Of a stretch of DNA of 43,244 nt, positions 3,579 to 40,586 are shown one piece after another. The notes under the pieces are model-generated. The model was not told the origin of the DNA. It ran no database searches and was given only the letters and a program-made list of their open reading frames with translations. The DNA lies in NCBI GenBank assembly GCA_028876655.1, contig JAGWRA010000024.1, forward strand, positions 1-43,244, in the 5' to 3' direction. Position numbers and translations under genes: made by a program. Source of the stretch: Acidobacteriota bacterium. GTDB lineage: Bacteria; Acidobacteriota; Vicinamibacteria; Vicinamibacterales; CAVVIG01. Every line of letters starts with the position of its first letter. Position 1 is the first letter of the stretch.

Positions 3579-4422
3579 GTTCGTCTTCAGCCTGCTCACG
3601 GTCCTGCTGGCGGGCGTGACGGTGCTGACGAGCGCCACCCTGGCGCCTCGCCCCCGCGCGGAGCCATCGGTCGAGGCGCGCGAGCGCCGCTGCTGGCGGG
3701 CCCTCTGGCGGCCGCTGATGCCGGCCACCCTGGTGGTCGCGGGACTCTGCGGATGGGTCGCCGTCGAGCCCGATCCCATGGAGCGGATGCCACGGCTGCT
3801 GATCCTCGCCGCGGTTCCCTTCTGCGCAATCTGGACGCGCGCCGTCTGGCGCGCCCTGGCCGGACTGGTCAGCGGTCCGGGCACCGCGGCGGCCGTGTCG
3901 CTCGGCTTCGTGCGGCCCGGGATTCTCGTCTCACCGGCGTTCGCCCGCGCCGTCGACGCCAGCGCGCTCCAGGCGGCCTGCGTGCACGAAGAGGCGCACG
4001 CGCGACATCACGACCCCATCCGACTCTGGCTGGCCCGGCTGGCGACCGATCTCCAATGGCCGTTGCCGGCTGCCCGCCGCCGCTTCGCGCAGTGGCGCCA
4101 GGCCCTCGAGCTGGCGCGGGACCAGGAGGCGCGCGGCCATGGCGCCGATGGCGCCGATCTGGCCGCGGCGGTTCTGGCCGCGGTCCGGCTGGAGGTGGTC
4201 GCCGCCGGCCCCGCGGCGTCACTGCACAACGTCTGCGAGGCCGAGTTCCTGACCGAACGGGTCGCCCGACTGCTGGCCCCCGTCGACGCCGAAGCCGGAC
4301 GCCGCTCGGAGACGCCGGCGACCGTCACGCTCCCGGCGCTGACCGCGATCTGGACGCTGGCCATCCTGATCGGCGCCACGTTCGGCGAGCGCGCGGTGCG
4401 GCTGCTGTTCCGGCTCGGCTGA
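3568..4422 (+). CDS. Short BlaR1-like M56 membrane metallopeptidase without a sensor domain
   Basis: A 284-residue inner-membrane protein with about four hydrophobic segments (residues 5-26, 50-66, 76-100, 258-277). It contains the zinc-protease motif HEEAH (residues 140-144) and a downstream ALELARDQEA stretch (E181) that matches the third-ligand region of M56 peptidases. GGAGG at 3556-3560 lies 7 nt before the ATG and fixes the start. In BlaR1/MecR1 the peptidase cleaves the partner BlaI repressor after an extracellular sensor binds ligand. Here the chain ends right after the last membrane helix, so there is no penicillin-binding sensor domain. Either a different signal or another protein triggers it, or the membrane segments sense directly. 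The pairing with BlaI is by position and family. Confidence 0.82.
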   Translation: MDREFVFSLLTVLLAGVTVLTSATLAPRPRAEPSVEARERRCWRALWRPLMPATLVVAGLCGWVAVEPDPMERMPRLLILAAVPFCAIWTRAVWRALAGLVSGPGTAAAVSLGFVRPGILVSPAFARAVDASALQAACVHEEAHARHHDPIRLWLARLATDLQWPLPAARRRFAQWRQALELARDQEARGHGADGADLAAAVLAAVRLEVVAAGPAASLHNVCEAEFLTERVARLLAPVDAEAGRRSETPATVTLPALTAIWTLAILIGATFGERAVRLLFRLG

Positions 4423-9490: not shown

Positions 9491-10200
9491 CCCGCATGCT
9501 CCTCTTCGAGCGCCCGCGGGAACAGCACGTTGTTCTCGAGGTGCACGTGCTGGTGCAGGTCCCGCTCGAAGTCCCGCAGTTCCTGGAAGCACGCCCGGAA
9601 GGTCCCGCAGGCATCCTCGGGCACGGTGAAGTCGTGGCTCAGCGCCCGGATGGTCGCCATCTCGCCGCCGGCCTGCTCGTGCTCGCGCATCATCATCGCG
9701 ATCGGCCCGCCCGCCGACATGAACCCCGCCTGCGGCCGGCCCCCGCGACGCGCCTCGCCCAGTTCCTTCAAGTACGGGAAGAGCACCTGCTCCTCCTTCA
9801 TCATGTGCAGCTCCAGATCCTCGGCGAGCGTCTCGAACTGCGCCGCGATCTCCACCAGCTCCGGATGGTTCCGTCCGTGCACCTGCGCGATCTTCCGCGT
9901 GTGCTGCAGCAGGACCGGGCTCGCCTGGCGCACCCAGGCGTGGTGGTTCTCGACGATGTAGTCGACGAGCAGCCCGAGCGACCAGGTCGTGAATCGCGGC
10001 ACCGTGCCGGCCGCCGAGGCGTCGCCGGACGACAGGGCTTCGAGCAGGTCCGGGAGGGCGACGCCACGCTCGCGCGAGACGACGCCGAGCGGGCGCTGGC
10101 CGCCGCAGCAGAAATCGATGCCGAACCGCTCGAAGACGGCGGCGGCCCGGGGGTTCTCGGCGACGATGGCGCTGACGTGCGTGTCTTCGGTAATGGTCAT
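9487..10200 (-). CDS. ric: Iron-sulfur cluster repair di-iron protein (RIC/ScdA/YtfE family)
   Basis: A 237-residue cytoplasmic protein. The N-terminal ScdA_N (DUF542) domain ends in FCCGG (Cys31-Cys32), followed by a hemerythrin-like four-helix bundle. Candidate di-iron ligands are in NHHAWV, NHPELVEI, LELHMMKEEQVLFPYL, MMREHEQAG and HVHLENNVLFPRAL. Family members repair Fe-S centres damaged by nitric oxide or oxidants. The start is ATG 10200, with GGAG 7 nt upstream; an open frame continues further upstream without family features. It is divergent from the Cof phosphatase gene, with a CRP/FNR-like palindrome 51-66 nt upstream of its start, consistent with nitrosative or redox control. Confidence 0.93.
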   Translation of the reverse strand: MTITEDTHVSAIVAENPRAAAVFERFGIDFCCGGQRPLGVVSRERGVALPDLLEALSSGDASAAGTVPRFTTWSLGLLVDYIVENHHAWVRQASPVLLQHTRKIAQVHGRNHPELVEIAAQFETLAEDLELHMMKEEQVLFPYLKELGEARRGGRPQAGFMSAGGPIAMMMREHEQAGGEMATIRALSHDFTVPEDACGTFRACFQELRDFERDLHQHVHLENNVLFPRALEEEHAG

Positions 10201-11125: not shown

Positions 11126-11196
11126 GGCTGCGGGCTTCGGAGCCCGATGGTGCCCCGTAGCCCGGAGCCTGCAGCCTGTAGCCCTGTAGCCCGCTA
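11126..11196. repeat. Heptad repeat array 1, fold-back type
   Basis: The array begins immediately after the Cof stop and ends on the stop codon of the convergent cupredoxin gene. It reads in 7-bp steps: GGCTGCG, GGCTTCG and GAGCCCG on the left, then CCCGTAG, CCCGGAG, CCTGCAG and CCTGTAG on the right, with one extra base near 11082-11089 of the same phase series. The left part is complementary in type to the right, so the transcript can fold back. It may act as a bidirectional terminator. Confidence 0.75.
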
Positions 11197-18063: not shown

Positions 18064-19950
18064 ATGCGAATCGGATCGGTGCAGGTGTCGATGCGGGGCG
18101 CTCCGGTCGGGGCGCCGGCGGCCGGCCGGACACGGAATCCCGGTGTCTGGCGCGAGGCCCGCGCCCTCGTCTGGACCCACCGCAAACGGCTGAGCGTCGG
18201 GCTGGTGCTGATGGTCATCGACCGCCTCGCCGGCCTGGTCCTGCCCGCCACCTCGAAGTTCCTGATCGACAACGTCGTCGGCCGGCACCAGTGGCAGCTG
18301 CTCCCCGTGCTGGCGCTGGCGGCCGGGGCGGCCACAGTGGTCGATGCCAGCGCCTCCTTCGCCCTCTCGCAGGTGCTGGGGGTGGCGGCCCAGAAGGCGA
18401 TCACCGACGTCCGCAAGCAGATCGAGGCGCACGTCCTGCGGCTGCCGGCGCGGTACTTCGACACGACGAAGACCGGCGTCCTCATCTCGCGCATCATGAC
18501 CGACGCGGAGGGGCTGCGGAACCTGGTCGGCACCGGGCTCGTGCAGCTCTTCGGCGGCCTGATGACGGCGCTGATGGCGCTCTGCGTCCTGTTCTACCTG
18601 AACTGGCGGCTGACGGCGATCACGGTGACCATCCTGGTGACCTTCGGCGGCGGCATGGCGATGGCGTTCAAGCGGCTGCGGCCGCTCTTCCGCGAGCGGC
18701 GCGAGATCAACGCCGAGGTGACCGGGCGGCTCTCCGAGGCGCTGAGCGGCATCCGGGTCGTGAAGGCGTACACGGCCGAGAAGCGCGAGGAACTGATCTT
18801 CGCGAAGGGGGCCCACCGCCTCTTCCGCAACGTGGCGCAGTCGCTCACGGGCGTGTCGGCCATCACGGCCTTCTCGACCGTCGTGCTCGGCGCCATCGGC
18901 GTGGTGATGATCACCGTCGGCGGCCGCGCGATCCAGCACGGCACGATGACGCTCGGCGACTTCATCATGTACCTCTTCTTCACCGGCCTGATGGCGGCGC
19001 CGGTCATCCAGATCGCCTCGATCAGCACGCAGATCAGCGAGGCCTTCGCCGGCCTCGACCGGATCCGCGAGATCCGGCAGATGGCCACCGAGGACGAGGA
19101 GGACCGCCTGCGCGAGCCGATCGACGAGGTGAAGGGGGCGATCGTCTTCGACCGCGTCGGCTTCGGCTACAAGCCGGACGCCCCGGTGCTGCACGAGATC
19201 TCGTTCCGCGCGCCGGCCGGCTCGACGACGGCGCTCGTGGGGTCGAGCGGCGCCGGCAAGAGCACGCTGATCAGCCTGGTGATGACGTTCAACCATCCGC
19301 AGTCCGGGCTCATCACCATCGACGGCCGCGACCTGTCGTCGGTCCGCCTGCGCGACTACCGCGCGCACCTCGGCGTCGTGCTGCAGGAGAACTTCCTGTT
19401 CGACGGGACGATTGCCGAGAACATCGCCTACGCCCGGCCGCATGCGACCCGCGAGGAGATCCAGGCCGTCAGCCGGATCGCCCACTGCGACGTGTTCGTG
19501 GAGCGGTTCAAGGACGGCTACGATACCGTCGTCGGCGAGCGCGGCGTCCGGCTGTCGGGCGGCGAGCGCCAGCGCGTGGCGATCGCCCGGGCGATCCTGG
19601 CCGATCCGCGCATCCTGATCCTCGACGAGGCCACGTCGAACCTCGACAGCGAGAGCGAGGCGCTCATCCAGGACGGCCTGCGGTCGCTGCGGCGGGGCCG
19701 GACGACGTTCGTCATCGCCCACCGGCTGTCGACGATCCAGAGCGCGGACCAGATCCTGGTGATGGAAGGCGGCCGGATCGTCGAACGGGGCACGCACGAG
19801 GAGCTGCTGGCCGCCGCGGGCCGCTACCGCGAGCTGTACGACAAGCAGTACCGCTTCGAGCGCAACCGGTTCATCAACCCCGGCGAGGACTTCACGCCGG
19901 AACCCGAGCCGGTCGCCTCGGCCCCGACGCGGCCGAATAACGCACTGTGA
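18064..19950 (+). CDS. MsbA-like ABC exporter, fused membrane and ATPase domains
   Basis: A 628-residue half-transporter. The membrane domain (about residues 40-330) has six hydrophobic segments. The nucleotide-binding domain has Walker A GSSGAGKST (393-401), signature LSGGERQRVAIARAIL (from ~497), Walker B ILILDEATSNLDSE (from ~517) and the H-loop VIAHRLST. It acts as a homodimer or heterodimer and flips lipids, lipid A-like molecules or hydrophobic compounds. MsbA-type exporters are usually 580-620 residues; here the extra length is a ~30-residue N-terminal and ~30-residue C-terminal tail. AGAGG precedes ATG 18064. No operon partner is adjacent, so the substrate is open. Confidence 0.93.
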   Translation: MRIGSVQVSMRGAPVGAPAAGRTRNPGVWREARALVWTHRKRLSVGLVLMVIDRLAGLVLPATSKFLIDNVVGRHQWQLLPVLALAAGAATVVDASASFALSQVLGVAAQKAITDVRKQIEAHVLRLPARYFDTTKTGVLISRIMTDAEGLRNLVGTGLVQLFGGLMTALMALCVLFYLNWRLTAITVTILVTFGGGMAMAFKRLRPLFRERREINAEVTGRLSEALSGIRVVKAYTAEKREELIFAKGAHRLFRNVAQSLTGVSAITAFSTVVLGAIGVVMITVGGRAIQHGTMTLGDFIMYLFFTGLMAAPVIQIASISTQISEAFAGLDRIREIRQMATEDEEDRLREPIDEVKGAIVFDRVGFGYKPDAPVLHEISFRAPAGSTTALVGSSGAGKSTLISLVMTFNHPQSGLITIDGRDLSSVRLRDYRAHLGVVLQENFLFDGTIAENIAYARPHATREEIQAVSRIAHCDVFVERFKDGYDTVVGERGVRLSGGERQRVAIARAILADPRILILDEATSNLDSESEALIQDGLRSLRRGRTTFVIAHRLSTIQSADQILVMEGGRIVERGTHEELLAAAGRYRELYDKQYRFERNRFINPGEDFTPEPEPVASAPTRPNNAL

Positions 19951-19964
19951 GGACCTGCCGTTGC

Positions 19965-20112
19965 AGTCTTGAGTTCTGAGTCTTGAGTGTTGAGTGTTGA
20001 GTTCCCCGTCTCAGCCGATCGACTCATAACTCATAACTCATAACTGAGAACTCATAACTCATAACTGACAACTCATAACTCATAACTGACAACTCGTCAC
20101 TCACAACTTCAA
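19965..20112. repeat. Heptad repeat array 2, strongest copy, fold-back type, before ppa
   Basis: The left arm (19965-20006) has five 7-bp units of the form AGTNTTG (one AGTTCTG). After a short spacer the right arm (20022-20112) has thirteen uninterrupted 7-bp units that all start with ACT: ACTCATA seven times, ACTGACA twice, and single ACTGAGA, ACTCGTC, ACTCACA and ACTTCAA. Read on the opposite strand, the left arm is ACTCAAC, ACTCAAG and similar units, i.e. the same family inverted. It sits between the ABC exporter stop and the pyrophosphatase start (10 nt before the ATG). It is clearly poorer in GC than the rest of the window. Confidence 0.9.
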
Positions 20113-20122
20113 GAGTTCCCCC

Positions 20123-20671
20123 ATGCACGCCTGGCACGATATCTACGTCGACGATCATCACATCGATCAGGTCTTCCCTGTCGTCATCGAGGTTCCGATG
20201 GGGAGCAAGAACAAGTACGAACTGGACAAAGAGACGGGGTTCATCCGCCTCGACCGCGTCCTGCACAGCGCCGTCCACTACCCGGCGAACTACGGATTCA
20301 TCCCCCGCACGTACTGCGACGACGGCGACCCGCTGGATGCGCTGGTGCTGGCCCAGGAACCGGTGGTGCCGCTCACCATCGTCCACGCCCGGGCCATCGG
20401 CATGATGCGGATGCGCGACGAGAAGGGGCTCGACGACAAGGTCATCGCCGTCAGCGTCCGCGACCCCGCATTCCAGGAGTACACCGACCATCACGCCCTG
20501 CCGAGCTACCTGCTGCGGGAGATCAAGCGGTTCTTCGAGGACTACAAGGTGCTGGAGAACAAGCAGGTGGTCGTCGAGGACTTCATGGGCCCGCAGGACG
20601 CTCACGCCATCCTGCGCGAATCCCTCGACCTGTACCGGCAGATGCGCAGGGGAGACCTGAAAAAGAAATAG
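20123..20671 (+). CDS. ppa: Inorganic pyrophosphatase (family I)
   Basis: A 182-residue cytoplasmic enzyme that hydrolyses pyrophosphate to phosphate and so drives biosynthetic reactions. The metal-binding signature DDGDPLDALV (Asp66-Val75) is intact. The IEVPMGSKNKYELDKETG segment provides the usual Glu23, Lys31 and Glu33, and later DPAFQEY and DYKVLENKQVVVEDF hold the remaining active-site positions. The length fits the bacterial family. The gene has no good ribosome site (AAGAG, 7 nt away) and is preceded directly by the longest heptad array of the window, which may contain or affect its leader. Confidence 0.96.
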   Translation: MHAWHDIYVDDHHIDQVFPVVIEVPMGSKNKYELDKETGFIRLDRVLHSAVHYPANYGFIPRTYCDDGDPLDALVLAQEPVVPLTIVHARAIGMMRMRDEKGLDDKVIAVSVRDPAFQEYTDHHALPSYLLREIKRFFEDYKVLENKQVVVEDFMGPQDAHAILRESLDLYRQMRRGDLKKK

Positions 20672-20755: not shown

Positions 20756-23700
20756 TCATCCCCCCACCGCCACCCGCGGCACGTGCGCCTCGTCCATCCG
20801 GTGCTCGAGCGCCGGGATCGTCTTCGAGACCATCGTCGACAACTCGCCGGCGTGCTGGCCGACCTCGCGGCCGGCGTCGTCGAGCTCGCGGCGCTGCGTG
20901 CCGGTCGGCAGGAACGGCGAGCTGACGATCTCGCGATAGAGCCGCAGGACCGTGCCGTTCGACTTGCCGACGGCGTCGTTCAGCTTCGACATCTCCCCGA
21001 CGACCTTGTCGAGGTCGCTCGTGATGCCCGCCGGCACGTTCTGCGCCGCGCCGACCGCCTTCTTCAGCGCCTCGAGCTGCGCGTTGACGGCCTTCGCCTG
21101 CGCCGTCGCGGCATCGGACTTCCGCTGCAGCGCCACGAGGGTGTCGAGCGTGCCGCGGCGCGCCGTCCGGTCGGTCTCCGAGATCCTCACCAGCGGATCG
21201 GCCTTCACCACGACCGGCGTCGTGTAGGTCCGGCCGCCGGCCGTGAGGCGGACGGTGTAGGTTCCGGGGTCCACCAGCGGCCCGACGAGCCGCCCGAAGA
21301 AGCCACCGCCCCCGCCGGCCTTGTGGGTCGGCGGCTCTCCGCGCAGATCCCACGACAGCCGGTTGATCCCGCGGTCGCCCGTCCCCTTCAGCTCGCGGAT
21401 CACCTTCCCCGACCGGTCGAGGATGGCGATGGAGACCTCGCCCGCGGCCTTCGTCTTCAGGTAGTAGTCGAGAATCGCCCCCGGCGGCGGGTTCTGCCCG
21501 TGCCACCAGTTGCTCGCCAGGAACTGATCGTCCGTGTACACGCGGTCGGCGAACGCCACGGCCGGCCGCACCTTGAAGAGGTGCGCGTCGCTCGCCAGCA
21601 CCCGCGGCGTCAGTTCCTCGAGCGGCTCGATGTCGTCGAGGATCCAGAAGCTGCGGCCGTGCGTCGCGGCGATGAGGTCGCCGTCGCGCGGGTGGATGAT
21701 CAGGTCGGCCACGGCCTGCGTCGGCAGGCCGCTCATCAGCCGCACCCAGTGGCGGCCGGCGTCGATCGAGACGTAGGCGGCGAACTGCGTCCCGACGAAC
21801 AGCAGGTCCGGATTCTCGCGCCCCTCGCGGATGACGCGCACGGGACCGTCGGCGGGCAGGTCGCTCTTGATCGACGTCCAGGTGGCGCCGTAGTCGGTCG
21901 TCTCGAACAGGTAGGTCGCGAAGTCGTTGCTCCAGTGGCCATCGAACGCCACGTACGCCGTCCCCTCGTGGAAGTGCGACGCCACCACGCGGCTCACCCA
22001 GCGCTTGCCCGGCATCCCCGGCACCTTCGCCGTGACGTTCGTCCAGTGCGCCCCGTCGTCACGCGTCACCCACAGGTTGCCGTCGTCGGTGCCGGCGTAG
22101 AGCAGGCCCGCCTTCATCGGCGACTCGGCGATCGTGCTGATCGTCCCCTTCTTGTCGGTCGTGAGATCCGGGCTGATGACCGTCCAGTCGTCGCCGCGGT
22201 CGACCGACTTGAAGACGAAGTTGCCGCCCAGGTAGAGCGTCGTGTGGCTGTGCGGCGAGATGAAGTACGGCGTCTCCCAGTTGAAGCGGTAGGCCTTCTC
22301 GCCCGGCTTCGGCTGGGGCTTGATCGAGACGTTCTGCCCGCTCGTCACGTCGTGGCGGACGATGCCGCCGTACTGCGACTCGGCGTAGACCGTCGTGTAG
22401 TCGGTGGGATCGGGATGGGCCTGGAAGCCGTCGCCCGTCATCACCTTCGCCCAGTCCGACTTCATGATGCCGACCGTGTTGCGCGTCGCGCTCGGCCCGC
22501 CCCACGAGCAGTAGTCCTGCGACCCGCCGTAGATGTAGTACGGCTCGCGCATGTCGACGTCCACCTCGTAGAACTGGCTGAGCGGCATCTGGTCCACGAA
22601 CTGCCAGTTCGCGCCGGCGTCGAACGTCATGTACACGCCGCCGTCGTCGCCGTCGATCATGTGGCGCGAGTCGGCCGGGTCGATCCAGAACGCGTGGTGA
22701 TCGACGTGGATGTTGTCGCGCCGCTGCTTGAACGTGTGGCCGCCGTCGAACGACTCGGAGATGTTGTTGCCGACGGTGTAGACGTGGTTCGGATCGTTCG
22801 GATCGACCCGGATCTGGCTGAAGTAGAACGGCCGCTGATCGAGCTCGTTCACCCAGGTCCAGGTCTCGCCGCGGTCGTCCGACCGGAAGACGCCGCCGTT
22901 CTGGAACGTCTTCTTGCCCGGCGGCGGCTCCCCCTCCGTCGTGTCGGTCTCGCGCGGCACCGTCGTGGACGTCTGGACGAGCGCGTAGACCACCGACGGA
23001 TTACTGCGCGAGACGCTCAGGCCGATGCGGCCGAGATCGCCCGTCGGCAGCCCTCGGGTCAGCTTGCGCCACGTCCGGCCGCCGTCGGTCGTCTTGTAGA
23101 TGCCGCTGCCCGGCCCCCAGCCGTACTCCGGGTCGCCCCCGTCGAAGCCGTCGCGCTGCACCTGGTACATCGCGGCGTAGAGCGTCTGGCTGTCGTGCGG
23201 ATCCATCGCGAGGTCGACCGCCCCCGTGTGATCGTCCACCGACAGGCTCTGCGTCCACGTCAGCCCGCCGTCGGTCGTCTTGTAGACGCCCCGCTCCTTG
23301 TTCGGGCCCCAGACGTGACCGAGCGCCGCCACGTAGACCGTGTCGGGATGGCGCGGATCGATGACGATGCGGCCGATGTGGTGGGTGTCCTTCAGCCCCA
23401 TGTTCTTCCACGTCTTGCCGCCGTCGGTCGACTTGTACACGCCGTCGCCCCAGAGCAGGCTGTTGCGCGGGTTCACTTCTCCGCTGCCGACCCAGATGAC
23501 GTCGGGGTTCGCGTCAATCGCGGCCACGGCCCCGATCGAGGAGACGTCCTCGTGGTCGAAAATCGGTTTCCACGAGACGCCGTTGTCGTCGCTCGTCCAC
23601 AGGCCGCCGCCGCCCGTGGCAACGTAGATGTGCTGCGGGTGGCCGGCCACGGCGATGTCGGTGACCCGGCCGCCAGCCCCGACCGGCCCGACGGACCGCC

Positions 23701-23809
23701 AGGTGAGCTGATGGAGCATCGAGGCGTCGAGCTGCTGGGCCTGCCCGGCGGCGGGCAGGCAGAGGACGAAGGTCGCAAACAGGACGAGGGCCGCTCTGTG
23801 TAATCTCAT
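20756..23809 (-). CDS. Exported BNR-repeat/sortilin-like beta-propeller protein (paralogue 1)
   Basis: A 1,017-residue secreted protein with a signal peptide (LVLFATFVLCLPAAGQAQQ). About ten Asp-box/BNR motifs of the form SxDxGxTW follow (for example TSDDNGVSW, STDGGKTW, TTDGGLTW, SDDRGETW, SVDRGDDW), building one or two seven-bladed propellers as in VPS10/sortilin and Xgh74-type proteins. The last ~200 residues lack these motifs and contain a beta-rich domain (GVYTVRLTAGG-like) and a helical end. Catalysis is not evident: the fold occurs in glycosidases and in binding proteins. TATAAT ends 8 nt before ATG 23809. A similar paralogue lies at 27009-30182. The divergent neighbour is an M28 peptidase, a frequent partner in peptide-degrading genomes. 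Confidence 0.9.
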   Translation of the reverse strand: MRLHRAALVLFATFVLCLPAAGQAQQLDASMLHQLTWRSVGPVGAGGRVTDIAVAGHPQHIYVATGGGGLWTSDDNGVSWKPIFDHEDVSSIGAVAAIDANPDVIWVGSGEVNPRNSLLWGDGVYKSTDGGKTWKNMGLKDTHHIGRIVIDPRHPDTVYVAALGHVWGPNKERGVYKTTDGGLTWTQSLSVDDHTGAVDLAMDPHDSQTLYAAMYQVQRDGFDGGDPEYGWGPGSGIYKTTDGGRTWRKLTRGLPTGDLGRIGLSVSRSNPSVVYALVQTSTTVPRETDTTEGEPPPGKKTFQNGGVFRSDDRGETWTWVNELDQRPFYFSQIRVDPNDPNHVYTVGNNISESFDGGHTFKQRRDNIHVDHHAFWIDPADSRHMIDGDDGGVYMTFDAGANWQFVDQMPLSQFYEVDVDMREPYYIYGGSQDYCSWGGPSATRNTVGIMKSDWAKVMTGDGFQAHPDPTDYTTVYAESQYGGIVRHDVTSGQNVSIKPQPKPGEKAYRFNWETPYFISPHSHTTLYLGGNFVFKSVDRGDDWTVISPDLTTDKKGTISTIAESPMKAGLLYAGTDDGNLWVTRDDGAHWTNVTAKVPGMPGKRWVSRVVASHFHEGTAYVAFDGHWSNDFATYLFETTDYGATWTSIKSDLPADGPVRVIREGRENPDLLFVGTQFAAYVSIDAGRHWVRLMSGLPTQAVADLIIHPRDGDLIAATHGRSFWILDDIEPLEELTPRVLASDAHLFKVRPAVAFADRVYTDDQFLASNWWHGQNPPPGAILDYYLKTKAAGEVSIAILDRSGKVIRELKGTGDRGINRLSWDLRGEPPTHKAGGGGGFFGRLVGPLVDPGTYTVRLTAGGRTYTTPVVVKADPLVRISETDRTARRGTLDTLVALQRKSDAATAQAKAVNAQLEALKKAVGAAQNVPAGITSDLDKVVGEMSKLNDAVGKSNGTVLRLYREIVSSPFLPTGTQRRELDDAGREVGQHAGELSTMVSKTIPALEHRMDEAHVPRVAVGG

Positions 23810-25383: not shown

Positions 25384-25465
25384 CGGAGGGTAGCCGGTCT
25401 CCGGTCCAGGCCGGCAGGCTCCGGGCGACGGGCTTCGGGCTACCGGGTCTTCGGTCTTCGGTCGT
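25384..25465. repeat. Heptad repeat array 4, next to the VapBC promoter
   Basis: About eleven heptads in one phase, most ending in GG: TAGCCGG, TCTCCGG, CGGCAGG, CTCCGGG, CGACGGG, CTTCGGG, CTACCGG, then GTCTTCG twice and GTCGTG. It fills the gap between the M28 stop and the TTGACA box of the toxin-antitoxin promoter at 25467. No clear fold-back arm is present. Confidence 0.75.
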
Positions 25466-26824: not shown

Positions 26825-26894
26825 GGGGACTGGGGGCTCGGGATTGGGGATTGGGGATCGGAGGAGATGGCAGTCGGGCGCTCGGGCCTCAGGC
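26825..26894. repeat. Heptad repeat array 7
   Basis: GGGGACT, GGGGGCT, CGGGATT, GGGGATT and GGGGATC are consecutive 7-bp units (26825-26859), with weaker units (GGAGGAG, CTCGGGC, CTCAGGC) continuing in phase. It lies behind the PadR promoter and before the strong hairpin at 26931. Confidence 0.65.
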
Positions 26895-26970: not shown

Positions 26971-27012
26971 CGATTTCTCGTTCTACGTTCTTCGTTCTAC
27001 GTTACCGATTAC
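26971..27012. repeat. Heptad repeat array 8, overlapping a stop codon
   Basis: CGATTTC, TCGTTCT, ACGTTCT, TCGTTCT, ACGTTAC and CGATTAC run in 7-bp steps directly into the stop codon of the BNR gene (27009-27011, minus strand). Confidence 0.75.
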
Positions 27013-30000
27013 CTGACGATGATCGGCTCCACCCCGCTCCGCTTCAGCAGGTCGTTGAACTGCTGCACCTGCTGGTCGAGCGACTTCAGCGTCGCCGCCT
27101 GCTTCGCCCAGTCCGCATCGAGCGCGTCGGCCCGCTGCGTCATGGCGGCCGTCAGCGGCGGGTTGTTGCCGTCGATGTTGGTGAACAGGAACGTGTACTG
27201 ATCCATCAGCTCCGGCGGGAAGTTGATCACGTCCTGGAACGTCCTGCGCTCGGGCTGCACGACCGACGTCACCCACTCGTCGATCCCCTGTCCCAGCTTC
27301 CGGCCCGCCTCCTGGATGGCGGTCGCATTCTTCGCCGTCGTCGTCCGCTTCAGGATGCCGTCGATCTGGGTTCGGACGTCGCGCATGCGGGCGGCGGCAT
27401 CGGCGATGGTATCGATCTGCGTCCGCAGGTGCTCGAGCAGCGCCTGCTGCGGCCCGAACGCGGCCGCCGCCTGGCCGGTCCGCGGATCCGGCTCGACGGT
27501 CAGCGGCGCGGTCAGCGTCTGGCCAGCCGCCATCAGCCGCAGCTCGTAGGCCCCCGGCGCCAGCGCGTAGCCCTGCAGGCTGTCGCCCGGCATGATCCCG
27601 GGGACGCCGTGCAGTGGCCGCCCGCGCAGATCCCACACGAAGCGGTTCATGCCGGCTCTGGCCGGCAGGACGTCCGGCTTCGGGACGCCGCCGCGCGGCT
27701 CGAAGCCCTTCACGTCCTCCTTGACGTCCGACTCACTCGAGAACGCGCGCACCACCCGTCCGTCGTGCAGGATCTCCATCGTCAGCGGCGCGCCCGCCTT
27801 CGGCGCGGCCGCCAGCTCGTAGTCGATGATCGCGCCAATCGGCGGGTTCTCGCCGGCGTCCGGCCCGCCCTTGCCGCCGTCGAGCACCCGCAGCGCCGGC
27901 TCCGGCCGGAACAGGTGGGCCGGCGCCTTCGCGACCTCCGGTGTCAGCTGCCGCAACGGCGTCAGGTCGTCGAGGATCCAGAACGCGCGCCCCTGGGTCG
28001 ACGCCAGCAGGTCGTTGCCGTGCACCATCAGGTCGGTGACGGGGACCACCGGCAGGTTCAGCTGCAGACTCTGCCAGTGCGCGCCATCGTCGAACGACAC
28101 GTCGACGCCGGTGTTCGTGCCGGCGTACAGCAGACCCGGCCGTTCCGGATCCTCGCGCACGACGCGGACGATGTCGTTGGAAGCGAAGCCGTTGACGATC
28201 TTCGTCCACGTCTTCCCATAGTCCGTGGTCTTGAACGCATACGGCGCATCGTCGCCCCACTTGAAGCCGGTGGCGGCGACGTAGGCCGTGCCCGCGTGCT
28301 CCGGCGAGACGTCGATGGCGTTGATCTGCACGTTCGTGATGCCGGGCGGCGTGACCTTCGTCCAGGTCCTGCCGCCGTCGCGCGTCAACTGCACCAGACC
28401 GTCGTCGGTGCCGACCCAGATCGTGTTCGCGTCGTGCGGCGAGGGCTCGATGTAGAGGATCGTGTTGAACACTTCGCCGCCCGCCCCCTCGTTGGTAATC
28501 GGGCCGCCGCCGGGGCCCTGCGTCTGCTTGTCGTCCCGCGTGAGGTCCGGGCTGATGACCGTCCAGGTCTGCCCGCCATCCTCCGTCCGGAAGACGACGT
28601 TGCCGCCGAAATAGATCACCTTCGGGTTCTCGGGTGAGGCGACGACCGGCGCGTTCCAGTTGAAGCGGTACTGCTGCTCGTTCGACCGGGCGCCGAGCCC
28701 CTGCGCGGGCAGCGGCATGATGCTCCGGTTGATGTGCGTCTGCCGATCGAAGACGTCCAGCATCCCCTGGTAGCAGTTCGCGTAGATGTCGCGCGGATCC
28801 TTCGGATCGAAGGCGACCGAGGCGCTCTCGCAGCCGCCGTAGGTGAACCAGTCCGTCCGCCCGATGCCCCGGTCGAAGCTCCGGCTGGCGATCGCCACCG
28901 TCGTGTTGTCCTGCTGGCCGCTGTACAGGTAGTAGGGGAACTGCTGGTCGGCGTTCACGCGGTAGAACTGGGCCGTCGGCTGGTTGTCCTCCGTCGACCA
29001 GGTCCTGCCGCCGTCGAACGTGATCGCGGCGCCACCGTCGTTGCCGTTGATCATGTTCTGGTCGTTGTGCGGGTTGATCCACAGGCTGTGGTTGTCGCCG
29101 TGCGCCTGCCGCACCGGCTGGAACGTGCGCCCGCCGTCGATCGACCGCAGCAGCGGCGCGTTGATGACGTACACGGTGTTCGGATCCTGCGGATCGGCCG
29201 TCACCTGGGTGTAGTACCACGACCGCGCACGGGTGATGCGGTTGCTGCTCGTCCGCGTCCACGTCCTGCCGCCGTCATCCGACCGGTACACGCCGCCATC
29301 CTTTGCTTCGATGTTCGCCCAGACCCGCTGCGGGTCCGCGGGCGACACGGCCACGCCGATCTTCCCCATCTCGTCGGTCGGCAGCCCCTTCGTCAGCTTC
29401 GTCCAGTGGTCGCCGCCGTCGGTCGTCTTCCAGATGCCGCTGCCCGGTCCGCCGCTCCGCATCTCCCACGGGAAGCGTTGCTCGTCCCAGTAGGCGGCAT
29501 AGACGATCCGCGGGTTCGACGGATCCATGCTGAGCTGCGAGACACCCGCCGTGTCGCTGACGTGATGGACCAGCTTCCACGTCTGTCCGCCGTCGAGGCT
29601 GCGGTAGACGCCGCGCTCGGGCGACGGCACCCAGGGATTCCCCTGCGCGCCCACGTACACGACCTCCGCGTTCCTCGGATCGACGACGATCGACGAGATG
29701 CGCATCGTCTTCTCGAGGCCGAGGTGCGTCCAGGTGGCGCCGGCGTCGGTCGACTTGTAGACGCCATCGCCGTCCGACGTCGCGACGCCGCGGATCGCGG
29801 GCTCGCCCATCCCGACGTACACCACGTTGGGATCGGAGGGCGCCACGGCAATCGCGCCGACCGAGCCGGTCTTGAAGAAGCCGTCGGAGACGTTCGTCCA
29901 GGTGATCCCCGCGTCCACCGTCTTCCAGACACCACCGCCCGCGCTGCCCATGTAGTAGACGCGCGGCTCGGATGCGACGCCGGCCACCGCGGCGACACGG

Positions 30001-30182
30001 CCGCCACGGAACGGTCCGATGTTGCGCCAGTGCATCGCCTGGTAGAGCGACGGCGGGTAGGCGTCGTTCCGCGCCGCCTGAGCCGTGAGCACGCGCCCGC
30101 CGGCGACGAGCAGGCCGGAGACGACGAGAAGCACGGCAGCGCTCCGGAGCCGCCGTCGGCCGATCGAGGAGAGATGGAACAT
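27009..30182 (-). CDS. Exported BNR-repeat/sortilin-like beta-propeller protein (paralogue 2)
   Basis: A 1,057-residue secreted protein with a basic N-region and signal helix (RSAAVLLVVSGLLVAGG). A VPS10/BNR propeller region follows, with many Asp-box motifs (TVDAGITW, STDAGATW, SLDGGQTW, TTDGGDHW, SDDGGRTW, TEDGGQTW). The end part holds a beta domain (APGAYELRLMAAG) and a long helical tail. The order of parts matches paralogue 1 at 20756, although similarity is clear only at the motif level by eye. GGAGG lies 6 nt before ATG 30182 and decides the start; ATG 30188 abuts the same GGAGG with no spacing. The substrate or ligand is unknown. Confidence 0.9.
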   Translation of the reverse strand: MFHLSSIGRRRLRSAAVLLVVSGLLVAGGRVLTAQAARNDAYPPSLYQAMHWRNIGPFRGGRVAAVAGVASEPRVYYMGSAGGGVWKTVDAGITWTNVSDGFFKTGSVGAIAVAPSDPNVVYVGMGEPAIRGVATSDGDGVYKSTDAGATWTHLGLEKTMRISSIVVDPRNAEVVYVGAQGNPWVPSPERGVYRSLDGGQTWKLVHHVSDTAGVSQLSMDPSNPRIVYAAYWDEQRFPWEMRSGGPGSGIWKTTDGGDHWTKLTKGLPTDEMGKIGVAVSPADPQRVWANIEAKDGGVYRSDDGGRTWTRTSSNRITRARSWYYTQVTADPQDPNTVYVINAPLLRSIDGGRTFQPVRQAHGDNHSLWINPHNDQNMINGNDGGAAITFDGGRTWSTEDNQPTAQFYRVNADQQFPYYLYSGQQDNTTVAIASRSFDRGIGRTDWFTYGGCESASVAFDPKDPRDIYANCYQGMLDVFDRQTHINRSIMPLPAQGLGARSNEQQYRFNWNAPVVASPENPKVIYFGGNVVFRTEDGGQTWTVISPDLTRDDKQTQGPGGGPITNEGAGGEVFNTILYIEPSPHDANTIWVGTDDGLVQLTRDGGRTWTKVTPPGITNVQINAIDVSPEHAGTAYVAATGFKWGDDAPYAFKTTDYGKTWTKIVNGFASNDIVRVVREDPERPGLLYAGTNTGVDVSFDDGAHWQSLQLNLPVVPVTDLMVHGNDLLASTQGRAFWILDDLTPLRQLTPEVAKAPAHLFRPEPALRVLDGGKGGPDAGENPPIGAIIDYELAAAPKAGAPLTMEILHDGRVVRAFSSESDVKEDVKGFEPRGGVPKPDVLPARAGMNRFVWDLRGRPLHGVPGIMPGDSLQGYALAPGAYELRLMAAGQTLTAPLTVEPDPRTGQAAAAFGPQQALLEHLRTQIDTIADAAARMRDVRTQIDGILKRTTTAKNATAIQEAGRKLGQGIDEWVTSVVQPERRTFQDVINFPPELMDQYTFLFTNIDGNNPPLTAAMTQRADALDADWAKQAATLKSLDQQVQQFNDLLKRSGVEPIIVR

Positions 30183-30536
30183 CGGCATCCTCCAGCTGAA
30201 GAGGGCCGTCCGGGAACCGGACGGCCAGACCACGCTGCTGTCAGCAGACAGAACGCCGACCGTCAGCGCAGCGGGAAAATCAGGAGGAATCGAGCAAGAA
30301 GCAGGCCAGAGGGTGCTGAGCCGTTGGGAAGGCTGCGGCTCAGCAGCCTGCGGGCTTCGGGCTACCGGCTACGGGCTCCAGGTACGGCAGACCGGGAAGC
30401 TGTGCGCAGGCGCGTGGATTATGTCGCGGACGTCGAACGACCAGCGACGGAGCGGCCAGCTGATCCGCCCCGGGGACGACCGATCCCGCGCGAGAGAGAC
30501 CGTCGCAGTCGAACATGAAGCCGGGCCTGCTCGAGC
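30183..30536. other. Intergenic region between BNR gene 2 and the unknown membrane protein gene
   Basis: These 354 bases hold a perfect hairpin, GCTGAGCCG (30315-30323) with CGGCTCAGC (30336-30344) and a 12-nt loop, followed at once by heptad array 9. Nothing coding was recognised. The promoter of the BNR gene should lie in the part nearest 30182, but no convincing hexamers were seen. Confidence 0.5.
30346..30387. repeat. Heptad repeat array 9
   Basis: GCCTGCG, GGCTTCG, GGCTACC, GGCTACG, GGCTCCA and GGTACGG follow one another in phase, directly behind the 9-bp hairpin at 30315-30344. Confidence 0.75.
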
Positions 30537-33492: not shown

Positions 33493-33493
33493 G

Positions 33494-33570
33494 GAGTCCT
33501 GAAGTCTTCAGTCGACAGTCTCCAGTCGTCAGTCCTGATTCCTGGACCGGAGACCGGAGACCGGAGACGA
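33494..33570. repeat. Heptad repeat array 10, fold-back type, 11 units in phase
   Basis: Eleven consecutive heptads in one phase: GAGTCCT, GAAGTCT, TCAGTCG, ACAGTCT, CCAGTCG and TCAGTCC, then TGATTCC, TGGACCG, GAGACCG twice, and GAGACGA. The left half is rich in GTC and the right half in GAC, so the two halves are inverted versions of the same unit and can pair (GTCTCC with GGAGAC). It fills the gap between TypA and the rhomboid gene. Confidence 0.85.
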
Positions 33571-33587
33571 CGCGCGACGGCAGTATT

Positions 33588-40499: not shown

Positions 40500-40506
40500 A
40501 GGGAAT

Positions 40507-40583
40507 GGCTTCGGCTCCGGGCCTCGGACTCCGGGGCCCTGCAGCCCGTAGCCTGCAGCCTGCAGCCTGCAGCCCGCTGGGAT
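40507..40583. repeat. Heptad repeat array 11, fold-back type
   Basis: Ten or more units in one phase: GGCTTCG, GCTCCGG, GCCTCGG and ACTCCGG on the left; CAGCCCG, TAGCCTG, CAGCCTG twice and CAGCCCG on the right. Left and right halves are of inverted type. It lies between two convergent genes and ends 4 nt before the stop codon of the P-type ATPase. Confidence 0.85.
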
Positions 40584-40586
40584 TCC

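Follow-up and report, generated by a model that had tools for sequence, protein, structure and literature searches.

The closest described counterparts of the locus analysed here are the intervening sequences (IVS) that lie inside 23S rRNA, are excised by RNase III, and in Coxiella, Leptospira, and Brucella come with S23p/IVP, a PF05635/TIGR02436 protein common to both systems. The 428-nt Coxiella IVS is similar in size to the full-length elements described below, and in both cases terminal inverted repeats surround the gene. Tandem heptamers (GACAGAT) stand ahead of the S23p start codon in the Coxiella IVS (PMC4990558). In contrast to rRNA IVS, the copies studied here, including the array at 19965–20112, are intergenic, have arms composed of long heptad arrays, and mostly are without the gene.

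Tandem heptads between genes are known from other bacteria. The TAACTGA repeats of Beggiatoaceae, Cyanobacteria, and Bacteroidetes (PMC4679880) have a unit near-identical to the AACTGAN/AACTCAN heptads of the present array, are intergenic, and point at start codons; the published account treats them as direct repeats, apart from one inverted case, and proposes translational regulation, with no link to S23. The GGGAATC/GGGGATT repeats of Xanthomonas and Nostoc (PMC4692102) and the cyanobacterial STRR are intergenic heptads as well. They share with our arrays a rule that ties their strand to the closest gene, and a scarcity between divergent genes; they were read as G-quadruplexes and reported without association to mobile elements, and their role "still remains to be elucidated" (PMC4692102).

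Among mobile elements, MITEs and REP/RAYT elements resemble our arrays in being short, non-autonomous, dispersed between genes, and bounded by inverted ends. Here, however, each end consists of a tandem array that varies from lineage to lineage, and the partner gene is S23 rather than a transposase. A REP/RAYT element was rejected, as the genome contains no Y1_Tnp match. Avd, the accessory protein of diversity-generating retroelements, is a four-helix bundle homologous to PF05635 (PMC10053308), whereas the elements described here have neither a reverse transcriptase nor template/variable repeats.

We analysed a 43,244-nucleotide stretch of an Acidobacteriota genome (Vicinamibacterales; contig JAGWRA010000024.1), called the window throughout, together with further contigs of the same genome and its relatives. 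The array at 19965–20112 is most likely a non-autonomous, cargo-less, MITE-like copy of a small S23 mobile element, judging from sequence comparisons.

Layout of the Window Array

The array fills the gap between an ABC transporter gene (18079–19950) and an inorganic pyrophosphatase gene that begins at 20123. Its left arm starts 15 bp past the stop codon of the former and its right arm ends 12 bp upstream of the ATG of the latter; since the genes were predicted by a purpose-built codon-usage caller, distances to start codons are approximate. Both arms are of one heptad family on opposite strands, TGAGTTN on the left and AACTCAN on the right, which bears out an earlier note that heptad arrays invert midway, here and in other arrays of the window (Table 1). 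Unit variants are present inside the arms, and exact mirror symmetry is absent. The window has no match to any known RNA family in Rfam. Elsewhere in the window (20756–23809 and 27009–30134, minus strand), two large Sortilin-Vps10/BNR-repeat proteins of ~1020–1040 aa are encoded 3.2 kb apart and are probably paralogues.

Table 1. Heptad arrays of the window and arms around the S23 genes of the same genome.
Feature	Location	Strand	Heptads or remarks
Inserted region between flanking genes	19951–20122		172 bp here, 14 bp in same-genus genome G001
Left arm of window array	19965–20005	-	TGAGTNN (TGAGTCT/TGAGTGT/TGAGTTC), AACTSAN family on - strand
Spacer between window arms	20006–20020		15 bases; corresponds to S23 gene position in full-length elements
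Right arm of window array	20021–20110	+	~12 heptads AACTCAN/AACTGAN (AACTCAT/AACTGAC units)
Inverted heptad array between convergent genes	11126–11193		AGCCYGN family
Left-type heptads	25417–25463	-	CGGGCTN then CGGTCTN
Left-type heptads	26840–26858	-	GGGATTN
Right-type heptads	26975–27003	+	CGTTCTN
Left-type heptads	30351–30377	-	CGGGCTN
Inverted heptad array	33503–33568		CAGTCNN left, AGACCGN right
Heptad array between convergent genes	40507–40574		AGCCYGN right arm, degenerate inverted left part
S23 gene arms	contig C182		AACTSA
S23 gene arms	contig C18		GCAAYG
S23 gene arms	contig C270		AGCCYG
S23 gene arms	contig C245		weaker GGCGRT-type array

Period-7 Arrays across the Genome

Examination of 1.5 Mb of the genome, about one-fifth of which had been picked for AACTSA arrays, revealed 121 intergenic arrays of period 7 (820 per Mb); leaving aside the harmonic 14, no other period between 4 and 16 exceeded 34 per Mb. 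On the unselected contigs alone, 113 kb of intergenic sequence contained 69 period-7 arrays. Period 7 thus stands far outside chance. The earlier view that inverted arrays are unlikely to arise by chance is right. Unit families include AACTSAN, AGCCYGN, AGACYGN, AATCCCN, GCAAYGN, GCACGTN, and GGACGTN, among others. For AACTSA arrays, the pattern ACTSANAACTSANAACTSA matched the genome 112 times, against 9 matches for the reversed control, and was patchy in relatives (13/40 genomes). Two contigs, C18 (which stops at 9904) and C107 (with its array at 183–220), terminate within or close to a heptad array; assembly probably fails at such places, which would leave the arrays under-counted.

Like TAACTGA and STRR repeats, the arrays are intergenic runs of tandem 7-bp units with a constant orientation with respect to the closest gene; 146 of 191 arms lie nearest the gene they point at (p 1e-13). 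A like strand rule is followed by TAACTGA in Beggiatoaceae, where it was explained otherwise (PMC4679880). Intergenic regions with both arm orientations read left-then-right in 43 cases ("-+"), with one "+-" and one "-+-". Both exceptions trace to one small family first oriented wrongly, and none is left after it is turned over. This test fits one orientation bit per heptad family, so small families contribute little and the 22 same-family regions bear most of the weight. Half of the two-orientation regions combine arms from different families. At one locus (L137, contig C130), a 79-bp inverted repeat with ~94% identity (1840–1920 and 3785–3865; AACTSA plus GCAAYG arms) encloses two ordinary host genes, for an MFS transporter and a RidA-like protein, as if an inversion had arisen via recombination between two elements.

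Folding of the Arrays

The plus-strand RNA of 19965–20112 folds at −44.6 kcal/mol compared with −26.9 kcal/mol for dinucleotide shuffles (z −5.0), and the minus strand gives z −3.3. The earlier note had argued that such arrays can fold back on themselves. This holds at 19965–20112, at 11126–11193 (z −3.5), and in 16 of 17 same-family arm pairs (z below −2; median −5.3), while it is weaker at 33493–33587 (z only −1.0/−2.4) and at 40500–40586 (z −0.6/−1.8). The inversion is real in the window arrays, and the hairpin beats shuffled controls in some of them only.

One reading of these data, which we consider unlikely, is that selection acts on the arrays as RNA structures (mRNA-stability hairpins, bidirectional terminators, or translational leader/trailer elements) that arose in place by slippage. 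The strong folding of same-family arrays would suit this reading, as would the distribution of arrays, which are frequent where genes converge (36 of 124 regions) and rare where they diverge (8 of 190); translational regulation has also been argued for TAACTGA repeats just upstream of start codons (MacGregor 2015, PMC4679880). The rarity between divergent genes is, however, equally explained by selection against promoter disruption. Moreover, left-then-right order is equally kept when arms differ in family and cannot pair, which indicates that pairing is not what maintains the order. With a median folding z of only −1.8 in such different-family pairs, the data do not support the earlier proposal that selection for RNA hairpins is the sole cause. 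Two further observations, detailed below, oppose an origin in place: the site is near-empty in a same-genus genome, and arms enclose and travel with S23 genes, bounded by target duplications.

S23 Genes between Heptad Arms

A family search of the genome disclosed four PF05635/TIGR02436 genes (S23/IVP, four-helix bundle), all four of which are enclosed by matched inverted arms (Table 1). The nearest solved structure is 2GSC, Xanthomonas campestris XCC0516. The gene on contig C182 (within 9574–10045 of locus L142) encodes a TIGR02436 "four helix bundle protein" and lies between arms of the same family as those of the window array. Three of the S23-arm families (AACTSA, GCAAYG, and AGCCYG) are also the commonest families of solo arrays, whereas the solo families AGACYG, AATCCC, GCACGT, and GGACGT are without an S23 partner in this genome. 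Solo GCAAYG arms and the S23-bearing copy have a common inner boundary, GGTATTG(CTCAGG), which would fit cargo loss from a common ancestor.

Among 40 relatives, PF05635 genes are present in 34 and AACTSA arrays in 13, as expected if units differ between lineages, although by itself this is no proof. Most PF05635 loci in relatives have inverted heptad arrays on both sides, with a unit matched within the locus and differing between loci. Of 33 chromosomal S23 genes, 15 have period-7 arrays on both flanks, compared with 6 of 880 control genes, and 26 have an array on one flank or both, compared with 105 of 880; periods 5, 6, 8, 10, and 11 are at about zero around S23 genes. At the threshold used, about one-fifth of S23 loci lack an array of period 7. 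Arrays are ten times as dense within 300 bp of the S23 gene as further out in the same loci. When the upstream arm was aligned with the reverse-complemented downstream arm, the mean score within a locus was 23.0 (46 loci), while the largest mean among partner permutations was 12.0. The closer two S23 proteins are, the more alike their units tend to be (Mantel r 0.33, p < 0.0002). A few loci have direct rather than inverted arrays (for example, L294 and L277), and three (L287, L289, and L290) have inverted arrays of ~9-bp units, such as GGTTCACGG, in place of 7-bp ones. Insertion coupled to transcription was rejected, as S23 genes of Vicinamibacterales show no co-orientation with the upstream gene (16 vs. 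16).

The same arrangement extends beyond this order. In a set of 49 S23 loci from several phyla, the gene is generally flanked by period-7 arrays, mostly inverted and matched, with locus-specific units. S23-like genes occur in 26 plasmid records, mostly cyanobacterial; of 16 plasmid loci that were read, most (in Cyanobacteria and Gemmatimonadota) have the arms-plus-S23 architecture, with arms of GGGAACA/TGTTCCC in Nostoc, AAAAGGG/CCCTTTT in Geminocystis, and GGAGGGCA-type units in Gemmatirosa. On a plasmid of Azospirillum lipoferum (L304), an S23 element with inverted heptad arms sits inside a 23S rRNA gene (RF02541). Taken with the Coxiella heptamers, this copy makes the classical intervening sequence of rRNA look like one of the forms in which the S23 element inserts. 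An origin as phage cargo was rejected, as no S23 match was found in 50,697 phage records.

Three loci (L299, L305, and L308) place S23 genes inside CRISPR operons, twice in a cas6/cas4 gap and once in a cas10/cmr3-like gene gap, with flanking repeat arrays in every case. In one of them (L299:437–801, Anabaena sp. 90 plasmid), the upstream array is very long, with tens of 7-bp units (ACAGGTG/ACAGGGA), and the right arm is almost absent. A large screen lists "23S rRNA IVP" with CRISPR-associated proteins (PMC10910872), an entry that such insertions may explain.

Filled and Empty Sites

In the same-genus genome G001, the same two genes flank a near-empty site in place of the window array (Table 1). 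Two more heptad regions are smaller in G001, one being the S23-bearing locus L142 (501 to 161 bp) and the other L150 (about 245 to 35 bp). The pyrophosphatase loci of 80 named genomes are too distant for empty-site analysis, the clean comparison coming from G001 only. This comparison indicates that the whole window array is a lineage-specific insertion.

Plasmids provided sites at which the inserted unit, consisting of both arms and the S23 gene, could be delimited. Trichormus plasmid C carries an S23 element that Nostoc linckia NIES-25 is without, the flanks being ~99% identical, and GTAAT, present once in the empty site, stands on both sides of the insert. At a second Nostoc site, TTCTA is duplicated around an S23 insert, and at a third a duplication of TAATG/TTATG is probable. 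Fully clean 5-bp target duplications number only these first two, both on plasmids, the window flanks being too diverged from G001 to read one. The upstream gene's stop codon is part of the plasmid duplications. Another Nostoc plasmid site, at the junction of a TraM-like and a hypothetical gene (L317, L321), is filled with an S23 element in two plasmids and empty in two; in Nostoc ATCC 53789 it carries a cargo-less array whose arms are related, and in Nostoc C057 an array from a different family. These states point to the junction as an insertion hotspot, and the series of filled, empty, and cargo-less forms is the closest parallel to the window array.

The insertions bear on three other readings. 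Heptads could be operators that regulate the S23 gene, solo arrays being sites of an S23 regulon rather than element ends. Their presence on both sides of S23 and the way units track the S23 lineage are compatible with such a role; nevertheless, the insert between target duplications contains both arms, and solo arrays are inserted too, so that we consider a purely regulatory role very unlikely. Binding by S23 is compatible with arms being part of the insert, and the element reading assumes it too.

The earlier note had also suggested outward growth from a palindromic seed to either side, which could occur by polymerase slippage or snap-back synthesis. Inverted arms, a short spacer, and unit variants within arms are what such growth might leave. 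Yet arms can be separated by 400 bp and a whole gene, the two can be of different families, the window pair is no exact mirror image, and the S23 association is left unexplained. A seed is disfavoured because the array is a lineage-specific insertion and the arrangement also encloses whole S23 genes; the S23-locus statistics and the plasmid insertions disfavour it strongly, and we regard this origin as highly improbable. Hardly credible, finally, is a telomerase-like reverse transcriptase writing templated heptads onto DNA ends at intergenic breaks, with head-to-head polarity like that of fused telomeres: the strand polarity is as expected from 3'-end addition at a break, but the S23 gene sits inside the arms, the many units in one genome would require many templates, and RVT_1 (PF00078) does not track heptad abundance in relatives, being without a match in heptad-rich G017, G018, and G020 (genomes 87–91% complete), for which this enzyme was rejected.

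Discussion

The element reading draws on matched inverted arms, near-empty sites, arms and S23 gene inserted as one, and cargo-less plasmid versions, each observed directly. A full-length element, ~430–500 bp at the sites measured, would consist of a left heptad arm, an S23/IVP gene (PF05635), and an inverted right heptad arm, and in full-length copies the gene is indeed enclosed by terminal inverted repeats. Each S23 lineage would have its own heptad, common to both arms of one element. The window copy would have kept its AACTSA arms and lost, or never carried, the gene; a gene with AACTSA arms exists elsewhere in the genome (contig C182). As its spacer of 15 bases leaves the S23 gene absent, the window copy is classed as related to the S23 element and not as a complete one.

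In the mechanism that we propose, S23 would bind its cognate heptad array, as DNA or as an RNA hairpin, and may act in trans on solo copies, with cutting and joining carried out by a host enzyme or some other one. Arm length would change through slippage, and recombination between copies could give mixed-family arms and inversions, for which the 79-bp inverted repeat described above may be cited. That insertions lie beside stop and start codons probably reflects selective tolerance, since a short duplication can restore a stop or start codon. Several points count against the element reading. No recombinase is known from the element, a four-helix bundle does not resemble one, and PF00078 has a distribution out of keeping with that role. 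In addition, the mixing of families in half of the two-orientation regions is explained by the presumed recombination alone.

On balance, we lean towards a broader proposal, in which S23 four-helix-bundle proteins would define widespread minimal transposable elements made of two arms and a single small gene, with a 5-bp duplication, no recognisable recombinase, and lineage-specific heptad ends, and in which the heptads of cyanobacteria, Xanthomonas, Beggiatoa, and other bacteria and the 23S IVS would be cargo-less or rRNA-inserted forms. A search of open-access papers found no statement of the S23/heptad link.

Two puzzles may therefore have one answer: the hundreds of intergenic heptad arrays, in fixed strand order, in bacteria that are unrelated, and the role of the S23 protein of rRNA IVS. 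If the proposal is true, the S23 genes in CRISPR operons would be insertions and not Cas components. If S23 moves or protects heptad-ended elements, this would imply a transposition-like process without a recognised transposase, and a pairing code between protein and heptad.
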